Positions 17,235-27,985 are shown, counted from the first letter of the stretch. The stretch: 64,000 bases of DNA from Miltoncostaea oceani (GCF_018141545.1 NZ_CP064356.1:930001-994000); one strand, 5' to 3'. Numbers and translations are program-made. Notes: a model not told the origin generated them from the sequence alone.

Positions 17235-18466
17235 TCAGGCCGCCCGCACGACCCGCAACCCCGCGCCGCGGGGCCGGGTCGCGGACGACGCGTCGATGCG
17301 GGCGCCGGTGCGGTCGGCGCCCGTCAGGTCGCATCCGCCGAGCGCGGCGCCAGTGAGGTCGGCGTCGCGCAGCACGGCGGCCAGCAGGCGGGCCCCCGTC
17401 AGCGAGGCGCCGGTCGCGACGGCGCCCGTCAGGTCGGCGCCCGCGAGGGTCGCGCCGTCGAGCCGGGCCCCGGCGAGGTCGGCGCCGGCGAGCAGGGCAC
17501 GGGTGAGGTCGGCGCCGCGCAGGTCGGCCCCGCGCAGGTCGAAGCCGGTGAGGTCGGCGGCCCGCAGGTCGGCGCCGTGCAGGCCGGGGGCCCGGCCGAG
17601 GCTCGCCGGGCCGTGCGTGCGGCCGCGGTTGAATCCGCCGAGCAGGGCGTCCCGCAGGCGCGCGCCGGTGAGGTCGTCGAACCGGGCCGAGCGCAGGTCG
17701 GCGCGGGCGAGGACGGCGTCGGTGACGTCGGCGCCGGTGAGGTCGGCACCGGCGAGGTCCGCCCCGTCGAGGGTGCACGCGGTGAGGTCTGCGCCGCGCA
17801 GCACCGCCCGGGCGAGCAGCGCCCCCGTGAGCCGGGCCCGGAACAGGGACGCCCCGGTGAGGTCGGTGCCCCGCAGGTCGGCGCCGGCCAGGTCGGCCCC
17901 GGACAGGTCCGCCCCCGCGAGCGCGAACCCGGCGAGGTCGGCGCCGGGCAACATCGCGCCGTCCATGCGGTGCGCCCCCGCAGGCGCGGCGACGGGGCTG
18001 CCGCCGTCGCTCCCCCAGTCGGTGCTGGCGAGCGCGGCGCCGCACATGTCGGCGCCCTCCAGGACGGCGCCCGCGAGGCACGCGCCGGTGAGGTCCGTGT
18101 CGCGCAGGCTCGCCCCGGTGAGGTCGGCGTGGGCGAGACGGGCGTCGCGCACCGTCGCCCCGTCGAGGCGCGCCCCGCCGAGCGCGGCCCGCGACAGGTC
18201 GGCGCCGTCGAGCGCCGCGCCGCGGAGGTCCGCGCCGGTGAGCACGGCGCGCTCCAGCGTGGCCCCCCGCAGGTCGGCGCCCCGCAGGTCGCGGTCGCGC
18301 AGGTCGGCGCGCGACAGGTCGACGCCCGCCAGGTCGCCCGCCGGAGCGCGAGCCCCGGCCCGGCGCGTCGCCCGCCGCGCGCGCCGGCCAGCCAGCGTTC
18401 GTGGGCGCGGAGGCCCCGGGTGAGGTCGGTTGCGGCGGCGGGACGTGCGGGGCGGCGTGCGTGCAT
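17235..18466 (-). pseudogene. Pentapeptide-repeat protein gene with apparent single-base frameshift
   Basis: From about 18350 down to 17235 the frame encodes an almost unbroken series of A(D/N)LxG-type pentapeptides, a right-handed beta-helix in which roughly 50 repeats are recognisable. The natural N-terminus lies in a different frame: an ATG at 18466, with GGAGG upstream, encodes LTRGLRAHERWLAGARGGRR, the standard opening of this family. The two frames would join if one G were added to the CCGGGG run near 18352-18357. Either the gene is broken or the run was miscalled. The apparent 461-residue frame from 18620 has an arginine-rich, non-protein-like start. Function unknown; some pentapeptide proteins mimic DNA and bind gyrase. 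Confidence 0.75.
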
Positions 18467-18604
18467 GCGGGCGGTGCCTCCGTCGGGCGCGCGTGGCGCG
18501 GGGGTGCGGTGCGGAGCCGCGTCGGGCCCCGCGGCTCCCACTGTCATCGGCGGCGGCCGCGGATTCCCCCACCGGGCCCGGGCGCTCCCGCCTATCCTCG
18601 GGGG

Positions 18605-19102
18605 GTGAGCGCCGCCGCACCCGGGCCCGTCGAGGTCGTCGCCAGCCCCTCCGCGCCCGCCGGGTCGGCCGACGCCACCCGCCGCTGGGCGCTCGCGATG
18701 CCGGACGGCGCGACGCGGTTCCCGGGGGTGACCCGGACCGAGGGCGCCGCGGCGGCGGAGGCCCTCGCCGCGATGGACGCCGCCGCGTGGGAGACGGCGC
18801 TCGTCGAGATCACCCTCCCCGTGGTCCTCAGCGACGGCGCCGGGCCGTACCTCCTCGACCGGGACGGCCGCATCACGTTGGTGGTGGCGGCCCACCCCGG
18901 CATCCGCGACGTCCACGTCGCGATCGGGGCGCCCTCGCCCGGCCACCGGCTCGGGATCGTCGCCCGGCGGGCCCCCGGGGTCTGGGGCTGGCTCGCGCGG
19001 GTGGAGGCGTCGCCCGGCGACCGGGTCGCGGCGCTCGACGGCCTCGACGCGTGCCCCGACCTCCCCGCGGCGGTGCGGTGGGCACGGGAGTGGCCCGGGT
19101 AG
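18605..19102 (+). CDS. Hypothetical protein (165 aa)
   Basis: 165 residues starting VSAAAPGPVEVVASPSAPAG. Hydrophobic strands alternate with loops (TALVEITLPVVLSDGAGPYL), but I recognise no family. It is leaderless by inspection: TATCCT (18593-18598) ends six bases before the GTG. It precedes another small hypothetical gene by 26 bases. Confidence 0.7.
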   Translation: MSAAAPGPVEVVASPSAPAGSADATRRWALAMPDGATRFPGVTRTEGAAAAEALAAMDAAAWETALVEITLPVVLSDGAGPYLLDRDGRITLVVAAHPGIRDVHVAIGAPSPGHRLGIVARRAPGVWGWLARVEASPGDRVAALDGLDACPDLPAAVRWAREWPG

Positions 19103-23518: not shown

Positions 23519-23806
23519 TTACCCGTCGAGCCCGAGCAGGTAGCGGGCGCTCTCGAGCCGGGCCGGGTCGTCGGCCCACGTGTGGCCGAGGCGGCCGGTG
23601 AGCTCGGCGACGAGCGCGTCCACCAGGTCGGCCGTCATGGCCTCGAGCCGCTGGAGGTCGCCGGCGGAGCGTCCCTCCCAGCGGGACCCCGCCCGGGTCA
23701 GCTCGGCGCGCCGGATGTCCTCCGCCCGCGCGCGAAACGCGGTGACCACCGCGTCGGTCGTGGGCCGCGGCGTGGTCTGCGGCCCCGCGTCGAAACCGAT
23801 CGTCAT
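23519..23806 (-). CDS. Stand-alone glutamyl-tRNA reductase dimerisation-domain-like protein
   Basis: 95 residues from the ATG at 23806, with GGGAGGTG upstream. The stretch [17 protein letters not shown], then [19 protein letters not shown] and finally the [15 protein letters not shown] tail follows the C-terminal spinal/dimerisation domain of HemA in order and spacing. The catalytic and NADPH-binding domains of HemA are absent and the gene is complete. It may be a derived regulatory or scaffold protein. No HemA gene is in the window. Confidence 0.75.
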
Positions 23807-23891: not shown

Positions 23892-25931
23892 TCACCGTGC
23901 CAGTGGCGTCGGCCGCATCTGCGCGTGGCCGAGCCAACCGTGCTGGACCTCGTTGTGGATGACGGGGTCCAGGCCGTCGTTGAACCAGAGACCGCGACCC
24001 TTCCAACCGGCCTTCGGGTCGTCGATCCGGCCGTCCAGGCCCCGCTGGTATGCGTTCAGCGGGTACGGCACCCGGAGGGTCGTCCACTTCTTCGTCTTCG
24101 GCTGGAAGATCTGGAGCGAGTCCGAGTTCGTCCCGTTGAGGATGACCACGTCCTTGCCCATGCCGAACGTGCCGTGCACGTCGACGAAGAGGTAGTAGTG
24201 GAGGTCGGCGGTCCGCTGGTCGGCGGGCGTCGACTGGGCCAGCAGGGGACCGGGCGGCTTGTAGAACGTCCAGCCCTGCGGGCACTGCTCCCCGTTGCCC
24301 CACGTCTGCGTGCACTTGGAGCGGTCGAAGCGGCCGAGGTGACCGGAGCCGCCCATGGCCGCCCAGATCATGCCCTTCGAGTCGACGTCCACGCCACGCG
24401 GGCCGGAGCCCGGGGGCGGCGGGATGTACGACTCGAACTTGCCGGTCGCCTTGTCGTAGCGGACCAGGAGCCCACGCGGGCCGGTGCTCGGCTGCGCGGT
24501 CCAGACGCTGTTGTCCACGTCGTTCGGGATGACGCCGTAGTTGAAGCCGACGACGGGCTTGTCGGCGACGCCGTCACCGTTGGTGTCGACCTTGACCTCG
24601 GCGTGGCCCTGGGCCTGCGCCTCGGTCTCGGGGCGCTTCGGGTCGTACTTGCTCGGGTCGAACCACCCGAGGACGTACGAGTCGCCGCTCGTCCAGAGCA
24701 CGCCCTTCTTGTCGAACTGGAGGTGGTGCGTGCCGTAGCAGGTGTCGATCAGCGACCACTTCTTCGCCTTCGGGTCGTAGTACCCGAGCTGGCGGTGGTG
24801 CGACCTGCCGGCGATGGCGGGGTCCGTCTTGCACTGCGCCGGGATGTCCTCCTGCCACTCACGACGGATCTGCGTCGTGACCCACACGTTGCCCTTCGCG
24901 TCCAGCATCGGGTTGTGGGGGTTCGCCGGGTTCTGGTACCGCCCGACGTAGGCGCTCACGCCACCGACCGCCGTGGCGGGGCAACCGAGGGTCTGGAAGC
25001 CGCCCGAGCCGGCGGGGCGTCCGGGACCGCTGGTCGCGTCGCACCAGGAGGTGTTGTAGCCGTTGCGCGTCGGGACCTTGATGGCCGTCGACTTGTTGGT
25101 CTTCGGGTCGACCCGCAGCAGGCGGTCGTTGCCGATGTCGACGCCCCAGACGGGGCCCTCGGCGTTGACGCGCGGGTTGCGCTTGTCGGTCGAGATCTCG
25201 TCGTGGGCGTAGGCCCACTTGTCGCCCCAGTTCCACTGGGTGATGACGATGTTGCGCTCGAGGCCCTTCGGACGCGCCGGGGCGCTCTTCGGGGTCTCGC
25301 CCTTCGCGATCCGCCCGCCCCAGTCGGCGAGCGAGTCGAGGAACGCCTCGCGGCCGAGGCCGAGGCTGGTCCCGTACATCGTGCCGGCCTTCTTGGTGCC
25401 GTGGTCGAAGGCGTCACGGGTGGGGAGCCGGGTCGACTTGATCCCGATCTGGTGGCAGAGCATGCACGAGAGCTTGAACTGCGATGCGTAGTCCGGGCTC
25501 GCGTTCGGGAGGTTCAGCATCGACAGCCAGTAGTTGGCCGGGTAGATCTTCGCGGCCTGCACCTTGGTGCGGGCCGGCTTCACCTTGAGCGAGAGGTCCG
25601 CGCCGAGCTTGGCGGCCGTCTTCCCGGAGTCGACGAGGCCGTAGCCGCGGACCCACACCTTCCAGGTGGCCTTCGGCAGCTCGGGCAGCACGAAGCGGCC
25701 GTTGCGGTCCGTGACCACGATCTTGCGCATGAGCGTGCCGGCCGGCTTCGACTCGGCGATCACCCACACACCGGCCTCGGGCTTCTTCGCGCCCGAGGTG
25801 ACCTGCCCCTCGATGTAGTCCACCGGCGGCCCCTTCGCGGCGACGGACTCGTCGGAGGTGGCGCTCAGCACGAGCGCGCCCCCCGCGAGGACCGAGGCCG
25901 TGGCGAGCAGCGAGACCCATCTCCGATCCAC
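23892..25931 (-). CDS. Secreted haem-c protein with Vgb-lyase-like beta-propeller
   Basis: 679 residues from the GTG at 25931, which follows GGAGGGGGTG and gives a clean signal peptide (MDRRWVSLLATASVLAGGAL). Residues 36-120 are a carboxypeptidase-regulatory-like beta-sandwich. CMLCH at 156-160 is a CxxCH haem-c attachment site. Residues 210-670 form a beta-propeller resembling streptogramin B lyase (blades with GNVWVTTQI, GVLWTSGDS, GMIWAAMGG). This domain order suggests an exported electron-transfer enzyme or a redox sensor, not a lyase. It is divergent from the multicopper oxidase and blue-copper genes; an electron path between them is inference. No haem-c maturation genes are in the window. 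Confidence 0.82.
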   Translation of the reverse strand: MDRRWVSLLATASVLAGGALVLSATSDESVAAKGPPVDYIEGQVTSGAKKPEAGVWVIAESKPAGTLMRKIVVTDRNGRFVLPELPKATWKVWVRGYGLVDSGKTAAKLGADLSLKVKPARTKVQAAKIYPANYWLSMLNLPNASPDYASQFKLSCMLCHQIGIKSTRLPTRDAFDHGTKKAGTMYGTSLGLGREAFLDSLADWGGRIAKGETPKSAPARPKGLERNIVITQWNWGDKWAYAHDEISTDKRNPRVNAEGPVWGVDIGNDRLLRVDPKTNKSTAIKVPTRNGYNTSWCDATSGPGRPAGSGGFQTLGCPATAVGGVSAYVGRYQNPANPHNPMLDAKGNVWVTTQIRREWQEDIPAQCKTDPAIAGRSHHRQLGYYDPKAKKWSLIDTCYGTHHLQFDKKGVLWTSGDSYVLGWFDPSKYDPKRPETEAQAQGHAEVKVDTNGDGVADKPVVGFNYGVIPNDVDNSVWTAQPSTGPRGLLVRYDKATGKFESYIPPPPGSGPRGVDVDSKGMIWAAMGGSGHLGRFDRSKCTQTWGNGEQCPQGWTFYKPPGPLLAQSTPADQRTADLHYYLFVDVHGTFGMGKDVVILNGTNSDSLQIFQPKTKKWTTLRVPYPLNAYQRGLDGRIDDPKAGWKGRGLWFNDGLDPVIHNEVQHGWLGHAQMRPTPLAR

Positions 25932-26168
25932 GTGCACCCCCTCCACTTGTCATCGTTGTCACGAACGGCGCGACGCTACCTCGGGGTGGCCACTTTTATG
26001 GACAGGAGGGGGGCATCCATCTGGGTTACCCGATCGAAAGCCCGCTTTCCACGCGGTCAACGGTCGGATGTGACGAATATTCTGGCCGCGCAGTTGACGG
26101 GGCCCGACGGCCTCCCGATGCTGGCGTCCGCACCGCGCGTGACATCCGCCACGAGTCCCAGGAGGCCC
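25932..26168. promoter_or_regulatory. Divergent promoter region of the haem-c and copper-oxidase genes
   Basis: This spacer is less GC-rich than its surroundings. On the plus strand TATTCT (26079-26084) is a convincing -10 box for the oxidase; a second candidate is TTGACG near 26095 with GATGCT 16 bases downstream. On the minus strand TAGCGT near 25975 is a candidate -10 box for the haem protein. I see no clear operator palindrome. Confidence 0.5.
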
Positions 26169-27116
26169 ATGCCGACGTCCATGTTCCGTGCCCGCCGCGT
26201 AAGTCTCGCCGCCCTCCTCGCGCCGCTCGCGTTCGCGGCGGTGGTGCTGCCGGGACGCGCCGAGGGCGCGACCCGCCAGTACTGGATCAAGGCGGTGAAC
26301 GTCCGCGTGGACGTGGCCCCGAACGGCCTCGACGCCCTCATGGGGCGTCAGGTCCCGCTCGACCAGCGCTTCCTCGACGCCGTCGTCTACCGGGCCTACA
26401 CCCGCGGCTGGCGCAAGCCGCTGCCGAACACCGCCCGCTCGGGCGACAACGACGGCATCCCCGGGCCGGTGATCGAGGCCCGGGTGGGCGACCGCCTGCT
26501 CGTGCACTTCAAGAACGAGGACCGCACGTTCCGGCAGAAGCACTCGATGCACTTCCACGCGTTCACCTACAAGCCGGCGAGCGACGGGGCGTTCATCCCG
26601 CAGATCACCGGCAAGGGCGGCAACGTCCCGGTGGGGCAGTCGTTCACGTACCGGCTGACCGCGGGGCCCCAGAGCCGCGGCGCGTGGCCGTACCACGACC
26701 ACTCGTCGACGATGCACGACAGCATCCCGCGTGGCCTCTACGGCGCCGTGGTGATCATGGGGAGGAAGGAGAAGCCGCCGGACCGCCGCTTCATCGTGGC
26801 GTTCAGCAGCCACAACGGCTTCGACACGATCAACGGCCGCGCGTTCATCGGCAACACGCCGACGTTCCGCGCGAAGGTCGGCGAGACCGTGGAATGGAAC
26901 GTGCTGGCGATGGGCGACACGTTCCACACGTTCCACGTCCATGGGCACCGCTGGCTGAACGACGCCGGCACCCCGAAGGACACGGAGGAGATCGGACCCG
27001 GTGGCTCGTTCCGGATCCGCTGGAAGGAGGACGCGCCGGGCACGTGGTTCTACCACTGCCACGTCGAGTCCCATCAGATGAACGGAATGATCGGACTCTT
27101 CAAGGTGACGAAATGA
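26169..27116 (+). CDS. Secreted two-domain multicopper oxidase
   Basis: 315 residues with a signal peptide (basic FRARR, then a hydrophobic stretch ending near Ala34). All four copper motifs are present: H128-x-H130, H176-x-H178 (PYHDHSS), H253-TF-H256-V-H258, and HCH (296-298) with His302 and axial Met307. The type 1 site is therefore in domain 2 and the trinuclear site lies between domains, which usually requires a trimer. Two-domain enzymes of this kind oxidise phenols, metals or other donors with O2. AGGAGG lies three bases before this ATG and fifteen before a second in-frame ATG at 26181. Overlaps the next gene as ATGA. Confidence 0.9.
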   Translation: MPTSMFRARRVSLAALLAPLAFAAVVLPGRAEGATRQYWIKAVNVRVDVAPNGLDALMGRQVPLDQRFLDAVVYRAYTRGWRKPLPNTARSGDNDGIPGPVIEARVGDRLLVHFKNEDRTFRQKHSMHFHAFTYKPASDGAFIPQITGKGGNVPVGQSFTYRLTAGPQSRGAWPYHDHSSTMHDSIPRGLYGAVVIMGRKEKPPDRRFIVAFSSHNGFDTINGRAFIGNTPTFRAKVGETVEWNVLAMGDTFHTFHVHGHRWLNDAGTPKDTEEIGPGGSFRIRWKEDAPGTWFYHCHVESHQMNGMIGLFKVTK

Positions 27117-27985
27117 CGAAGCGCATCGTGGTCCTGACGGCGATCTCCTCGGCGGCGCTGCTCGCCGGGGCCGCCCCGATACTCGGGCAGATGACCCACC
27201 CCGGTGGGGGGGCGATGGCGCCGGGCGCGACCGCCGTCACCATCAACGACGCGGGGTACAGCCCCGGTGAGACGGTCGTCGCGCCGGGGCAGTCGGTGAC
27301 GTGGACGAACTCGGGGAGCAACCCCCACACGGTCACCTCGGACGTGCCGGGGATCTTCGACTCGGGGACGCTCGGCGCGAAGGCGAAGTTCGTGCTGACG
27401 GCGCCGGCCGCGGCGGGGACGTACACGTACAACTGCACGTTCCACGCCTACATGCGCGGCAGCCTGGTCGTCTCGACGGTCACGTTGATGGGCCCGAAGC
27501 AGGTGCGGGCGGGGAAGACGGCGTCGGTGCACGGCGCCGCCCCGGGGACGCCGCCCGGCACGGCGGTCGCGATCGAGGCGCTCGGCGCGGGCGGGGCCTG
27601 GACGGCCGTGGCGAGCGGGACGGTCGCGGCGGACGGGTCGTACCACGTGGTCACCCGGCCCCTGACGGCCGGCGCGACCCTGCGCGCCCGGGTCGGTGAG
27701 GGCCTCAGCCCGACGCTGACGATCCCGGTGGCCCCGAAGGTGGTCATCAAGCGCTCCGGCAAGCGGGGGATCGCGGTGACCGTGACGCCCGCGAAGGCGG
27801 CGAAGGGCAACCTCGAGCGGTTGAACACGGACACGTTCCGCTGGGTGAAGGCGAAGAAGGTCACCATCAACCGCCGCGGGAAGGCGACCGTCACGGTCCC
27901 GAAGGCCGCCGGGAGGTACCGCGTCACGCTGCTGCCGGCGAAGGGCCTGGCGGCGGCCAGCTCGGCGGGGTTGTCGTTCCGGTAG
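27113..27985 (+). CDS. Secreted blue-copper (cupredoxin) protein with beta-sandwich tail
   Basis: 290 residues. The signal peptide is followed by a plastocyanin-like domain (about 38-122) with type 1 copper ligands His72 (NPHTV), Cys108, His111 and Met114 (NCTFHAYM). Residues 125-290 are an Ig-like or surface-binding beta domain rich in Lys and Ala. Probably a soluble electron carrier for the coupled multicopper oxidase. It is translationally overlapped with the oxidase gene, which strongly implies joint function. Confidence 0.9.
   Translation: MTKRIVVLTAISSAALLAGAAPILGQMTHPGGGAMAPGATAVTINDAGYSPGETVVAPGQSVTWTNSGSNPHTVTSDVPGIFDSGTLGAKAKFVLTAPAAAGTYTYNCTFHAYMRGSLVVSTVTLMGPKQVRAGKTASVHGAAPGTPPGTAVAIEALGAGGAWTAVASGTVAADGSYHVVTRPLTAGATLRARVGEGLSPTLTIPVAPKVVIKRSGKRGIAVTVTPAKAAKGNLERLNTDTFRWVKAKKVTINRRGKATVTVPKAAGRYRVTLLPAKGLAAASSAGLSFR

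Follow-up and report, generated by a model that had tools for sequence, protein, structure and literature searches.

Does the locus described here, in which the gene of a propeller protein (minus strand) is arranged divergently to the genes of a multicopper oxidase (MCO) and a cupredoxin (plus strand), encode one extracytoplasmic path for electrons from haem through copper to O2, or do two modules merely have a divergent promoter region in common? The locus is situated in a stretch of 64,000 nucleotides of Miltoncostaea oceani, which was analysed as a whole and is called the window in the following. Its features are (positions in the window, strand in brackets):

23519-23806 (-): stand-alone 95-aa protein similar to the C-terminal dimerisation domain of HemA (GluTR; PF00745)
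23892-25931 (-): propeller protein (CarboxypepD_reg, c-type haem and Vgb-type propeller parts) with signal-like N terminus; 679 aa, GTG start
23895-25250 (-): seven-bladed Vgb-type propeller, residues 228-679, by structural match to Vgb lyases
25251-25565 (-): predicted helical haem-c domain, residues 123-227 (AlphaFold2 model)
25377-25379 (-): Met185, candidate distal haem ligand, in helix 183-191; 82/82 homologues
25452-25466 (-): CMLCH, predicted haem-c attachment motif, residues 156-160; 82/82 homologues
25575-25814 (-): carboxypeptidase-regulatory-like beta-sandwich domain, residues 40-119 (PF13620 and model)
25932-26168 (no strand): divergent intergenic region, 237 bp between the propeller and MCO genes
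26169-27116 (+): type B two-domain multicopper oxidase (2dMCO), as judged from its ligands; 315 aa, or 311 aa from an alternative start at 26181
27113-27985 (+): amicyanin-like cupredoxin (residues 40-120) followed by two beta-sandwich domains; 290 aa

A preliminary description of the window had reported three of these genes and their motifs, and inspection of open reading frames, Pfam matches and motifs confirmed their positions; the set of a CxxCH protein with carboxypeptidase-regulatory and Vgb-type propeller parts facing a two-domain MCO is real and divergent. The propeller gene has its stop at 23892; its longest open reading frame begins at 25946, and the GTG at 25931 is preferred as start because of a GGAGG at suitable spacing and the agreement with the starts of homologues. 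The stop codon of the MCO gene (TGA, 27114-27116) overlaps with the start of the cupredoxin gene (ATG at 27113) by four bases (ATGA), such that the two genes may be translationally coupled; the translational fusion that had been claimed on account of this overlap does not exist, as two separate proteins are encoded. As had been proposed, all three proteins appear to be exported, their N termini resembling signal peptides (judged by eye only), and the metal ligands are intact, i.e., the copper ligands of the MCO and the cupredoxin are complete and CxxCH is invariant in the 82 propeller homologues. Elsewhere in the window (17235-18620, minus strand), an open reading frame rich in ADLSGADL-like units resembles a pentapeptide-repeat protein.

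Concerning the propeller protein, the AlphaFold2 model (mean pLDDT 91.8, pTM 0.90) exhibits a beta-sandwich (residues 40-119), a helical domain (123-227), and a seven-bladed propeller (228-679), in this order. The PF13620 match to the first of these reaches 26.0 bits, under the gathering score of 32.3, and the region is all-beta in the model; helices of the second are modelled at residues 123-127, 132-136, 146-155, 172-179, 183-191, 194-209 and 223-227. A CxxCH motif is expected 0.002 times by chance in a protein of this composition. In the alignment, C156, C159, H160 and M185 are each invariant (82/82 homologues), and this conservation points to His160 as the proximal and Met185 as the distal haem ligand. 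The host genome encodes CcmC, CcmE, CcmF and a CcmA-like ATPase, and with the first three of these haem can be attached. The presence of haem c is thus a well-supported prediction, based on the invariant CxxCH and Met, the modelled helical domain, and the Ccm genes. As no cytochrome c model of Pfam or NCBIfam matched the protein at E 0.1, its haem domain lies outside every described cytochrome c family tested. The missing Pfam match would also agree with CMLCH being a metal site or a disulphide, so that the path would do without haem, but the invariance of the four residues across 82 sequences, a confidently modelled helical domain of suitable size, and the presence of the Ccm genes make this reading very improbable. 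Several relatives of the propeller protein begin with lipoprotein-like signals. Two near-equal CcmF-type haem lyases occur in the host genome (L125 and L160; G000:C1, at about 1357 kb and 3157 kb), the second of which (L160) has a tyrosinase-domain gene at a distance of some 6 kb.

The best structural match of the propeller is to the seven-bladed propeller of Vgb (PDB 2z2n, 2z2p, 2qc5), with a VIA Z of 26.7 to the lyases 2z2n/2qc5 (rmsd 2.4, 294 aligned) and of 22.9 to the next unrelated match; structure comparison additionally revealed a resemblance to the propeller lactonase RPA3624. Despite this likeness, there are clear differences from Vgb: the protein of the locus additionally possesses the N-terminal CarboxypepD_reg domain, the putative haem-c domain, long loops, and other residues on the inner strands, and it is not classed as a Vgb lyase, since its score of 16.7 bits misses the cut-off of 50 of the Vgb_lyase family (PF24684). 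According to the model, the inner strands of the seven blades would begin at residues 242, 339, 401, 465, 511, 578 and 629, and at these starts the conserved residues are H243 (82/82), H339 (79/82), H402 (82/82), Y465 (82/82), R512 (82/82), H578 (77/82) and R630 (79/82). The four histidines would thereby open the inner strands of blades 1, 2, 3 and 6, respectively, and blade order would put Arg630 where Vgb has its catalytic His270. Conserved His, Arg and Tyr around a central channel hint at an active site, which may contain a metal; this is regarded as a lead. Neither a PDB profile search with the 82-row alignment (at 1e-5) nor a scan of viral contigs with the propeller gave a match. In Luminiphilus syltensis, a second protein of the Vgb_lyase family (78.7 bits, above the cut-off) is encoded near the propeller gene (L032:11041-13002).

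With a fold closest to virginiamycin B lyase and the resemblance to the lactonase, and with type B 2dMCOs known to oxidise phenols (PMC13151041), the locus might also encode a processing pair, in which the laccase converts a phenolic compound into a radical or quinone, and this product is the substrate of a lyase or lactonase activity of the propeller; the haem would then be redox-sensing or structural, and no electrons would flow from haem to copper. We consider this unlikely in view of the missed Vgb_lyase cut-off, of the arginine that, by blade order, may stand in place of the catalytic histidine, and of a haem motif conserved without exception in 82 homologues, the majority of which lack a laccase as neighbour. 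The possibility of a plain lyase, which had been named beforehand as one that would undo the proposal, is likewise unlikely in view of the invariant haem-c domain and of a score below the Vgb_lyase cut-off.

The MCO contains one Cu-oxidase_3 domain (PF07732, 82.7 bits), one Cu-oxidase_2 domain (PF07731, 89.9 bits), and no third domain. Its conserved T1 ligands (H253, C297, H302, M307) are found in the C-terminal domain only, domain 1 having YHDH without Cys, and all eight histidines of the trinuclear site are present and conserved (H128, H130, H176, H178, H256, H258, H296, H298). With two domains and these T1 and trinuclear ligands, the enzyme is by its sequence a type B 2dMCO as defined in PMC13151041, a type of which the natural roles are poorly understood (PMC13151041). 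It is similar to the small laccases (PDB 3cg8; CjMCO, PMC13151041) in its two cupredoxin-type domains, in a T1 site confined to domain 2, and in the eight trinuclear histidines, and among single PDB chains two-domain laccases match it best; however, it belongs to a separate clade in the tree constructed here, and its gene overlaps with a cupredoxin gene. Furthermore, an N-terminal stretch of this clade, R-x-YWIKAVNVRWDVAPNG, aligned in the PDB profile search with the starts of the A-domains of ceruloplasmin and factor V, not with small laccases. On reading of the MCO alignments by eye, no conserved match to the residues of a ceruloplasmin-type ferroxidase site was apparent. The closest paralogue in the host genome (59% identity) is located in a copper island (L127, G000:C1:3122001-3141000) together with a heavy-metal P-type ATPase, a CopC-CopD protein, a DsbD_TM protein, and a thioredoxin-like protein.

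The cupredoxin matches Pfam Cupredoxin_1 with 42.1 bits, and its ligands H72, C108, H111 and M114 (His-Cys-His-Met with a C-x2-H-x2-M loop) are invariant in five homologues. A phmmer comparison related it to amicyanin (E 5e-10), and the NCBIfam amicyanin model (TIGR02657) gave 35.3 bits, under its cut-off of 110.2. The methylamine dehydrogenase chain likewise unites a propeller enzyme with a cupredoxin and a c-type haem in the periplasm; the propeller of that enzyme carries TTQ, and its cytochrome is a separate protein. The locus has the amicyanin-type C-x2-H-x2-M copper loop in common with this system (PDB 1mda, 2gc4), whereas its haem would be situated inside the propeller protein and a laccase would serve as end oxidase. 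In Nitrosopumilus maritimus (PDB 9cck), an MCO is joined to a C-terminal cupredoxin domain, which matches the cupredoxin domain studied here with Z 13.0 and an rmsd of 1.2 over 80 residues (36% identity). As far as the PDB entry goes, the archaeal protein is one polypeptide and no propeller cytochrome is implied, whereas the locus possesses two overlapping genes; going by this entry, the pairing of MCO and cupredoxin itself was already known.

The HemA-domain gene, which was absent from the preliminary description, follows directly downstream of the propeller gene on the same strand. The PF00745 match of its product (33.4 bits) is above the gathering score of 22.9; lacking the catalytic and NADP domains, the protein is not a GluTR enzyme. 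The sole other PF00745 match in the host genome is HemA itself, the gene of which has a CcmC-like gene at a distance of about 2 kb. Within the family, such a gene is found directly downstream of six of the seven intact propeller genes, i.e., in the window, in G007 (both copies), G073, G109, and G113, and is absent beside the propeller gene of G031; with a profile made here, none was found beside propeller genes outside the family. In the tree, the second propeller of G007 falls among proteobacterial sequences and outside the core clade, yet it is accompanied by a HemA-domain gene. At this second locus (L019, G007:C1:541001-560000), the propeller gene, which begins with a lipoprotein-like signal, is followed by a 62-aa open reading frame and the HemA-domain gene, no MCO being present, and a gene resembling the heavy-metal ATPase of the copper island L127 is situated about 2.4 kb further on.

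The co-occurrence of the three genes was surveyed in 42 genomes of the family, which form a small clade such that the counts are not independent. The cassette is present in 6/42 genomes, belonging to three genera. The window, G007, G109, G113, and G031 exhibit its divergent arrangement, and in G073 a contig end interrupts the copy within the MCO gene. Orthologs of the MCO (E below 1e-180) occur in five genomes, all of them among the six with a propeller gene, the sixth (G073) having the contig-end fragment; the Fisher test for this co-occurrence (2e-7) is given as description only, since the related genomes are not independent. None of the other 36 genomes contains an intact propeller gene. 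In one of these (G043; L024, G043:C80:1-10000), 121 bp of the 3' end of the propeller gene (approximately the last 35 codons) are all that is left between otherwise alignable flanks, and this genome apparently lost the whole cassette block, as if by one deletion. All four relatives whose genes are complete exhibit the ATGA overlap as well. The outer flanks differ among the window, G007, G113, and G031, with G073 and G109 having one regulator-like family in common; apart from these two, general synteny thus cannot account for the linkage. As an intact and exported-looking set is kept as a cassette in one family, a shared function is a fair inference, and the best explanation is a lineage-specific set of extracytoplasmic redox proteins within one actinobacterial (Thermoleophilia) family.

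Outside the family, relatives of the propeller protein are found at no fewer than 560 loci in other genomes, mostly of Proteobacteria and Acidobacteriota. These uncharacterised proteins (e.g., WP_099514940.1 from a Microvirga plasmid) exhibit the full-length architecture and the invariant CxxCH but, unlike the propeller protein of the window, never adjoin an MCO-cupredoxin pair at the loci examined. Of 79 such loci that were fetched, one was that of G113; tblastn searches of the other 78, all from other taxa, at 1e-3 revealed neither MCO nor cupredoxin beside the propeller, except for one 46-residue match (L103), although, with some contigs being short, absence is not proven for each single locus. 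A phylogeny-wide linkage of the three genes is ruled out by these loci. The conserved co-occurrence that had been predicted therefore stands inside the family (6/42 genomes) and fails outside it (0/78 propeller loci beside an MCO); routinely unlinked homologues, which had been named beforehand as speaking against the proposal, are what is found there, and the locus does not represent a general system. The neighbours of the outside propellers are PQQ dehydrogenases, PSCyt/PSD proteins (DUF1592 and related) and glyoxalase-like proteins as well as catabolic genes (AMP-binding enzymes, enoyl-CoA hydratases, FAA hydrolases, flavin monooxygenases), a setting that fits the oxidation of organic substrates. 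In other Thermoleophilia families, conversely, MCO and cupredoxin genes follow each other without a propeller gene; as the two halves occur separately, each is older than their pairing.

This distribution lends itself to another reading, according to which a laccase pair handling copper or oxidising phenols and a separate propeller cytochrome are independent modules with a common divergent promoter region, the cytochrome oxidising an organic compound and passing the electrons to the membrane chain, as presumably in Proteobacteria. The propeller-free MCO-cupredoxin pairs, the paralogous MCO in its copper island, and the outside propellers that never adjoin an MCO all speak for it, whereas the retention of the whole cassette in three genera amid different flanks and the joint loss of the block in G043 speak for one unit; we regard independent modules as the main alternative, somewhat less probable than the electron path.

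Nevertheless, the path from haem through copper to O2 is in our view the best single reading, with a probability of roughly 0.45; the parts and their linkage were observed, and from them we infer every transfer step. The propeller would bind and oxidise a small organic substrate in its central channel, the electrons would pass to the haem of the same protein, from there to the amicyanin-type cupredoxin, and from this to the T1 copper of the (putatively trimeric) oxidase and finally to O2, while the HemA-like protein may tune the haem supply for the cytochrome. This is supported by the retention of the cassette amid varying flanks, by the intact ligands and folds, and by the HemA-domain gene next to the propeller gene. 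Against it stand the separate occurrence of both halves outside the family, the second propeller of G007 without an MCO, and the lack of a common regulatory motif in the divergent region, where no 9-mer is common to at least four of the six relatives and no sigma-70 match was found. A real difficulty is posed by the trimer of type B 2dMCOs, in which the T1 sites face a central tunnel (PMC13151041), such that the docking of a protein donor may be hindered. A more far-reaching proposal, which we consider rather doubtful, is that propeller cytochromes constitute a widespread undescribed class of periplasmic haem-c oxidoreductases with a His-lined, possibly metal-binding site, the electrons of which are diverted in this family, by way of their own blue-copper protein, to a laccase reserved for this purpose and on to O2, the stand-alone HemA-domain protein matching the haem supply to the cytochrome.

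Although each component is of a known kind, we found no description of the haem-c propeller family, of its combination with a laccase and a cupredoxin, or of the HemA-domain companion: open-access literature and family libraries yielded no described function for the propeller family, and the open-access literature held nothing relevant on the gene set or on stand-alone HemA domains. If the independent modules were correct, the locus would still be a useful natural experiment in module linkage. If the electron path is true, a type B two-domain laccase would thereby have a protein as its physiological donor, and the haem-c propeller family, with its more than 560 loci, would gain a first clue to its function. 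A stand-alone HemA domain next to a cytochrome would constitute a new kind of link from haem synthesis to haem use.
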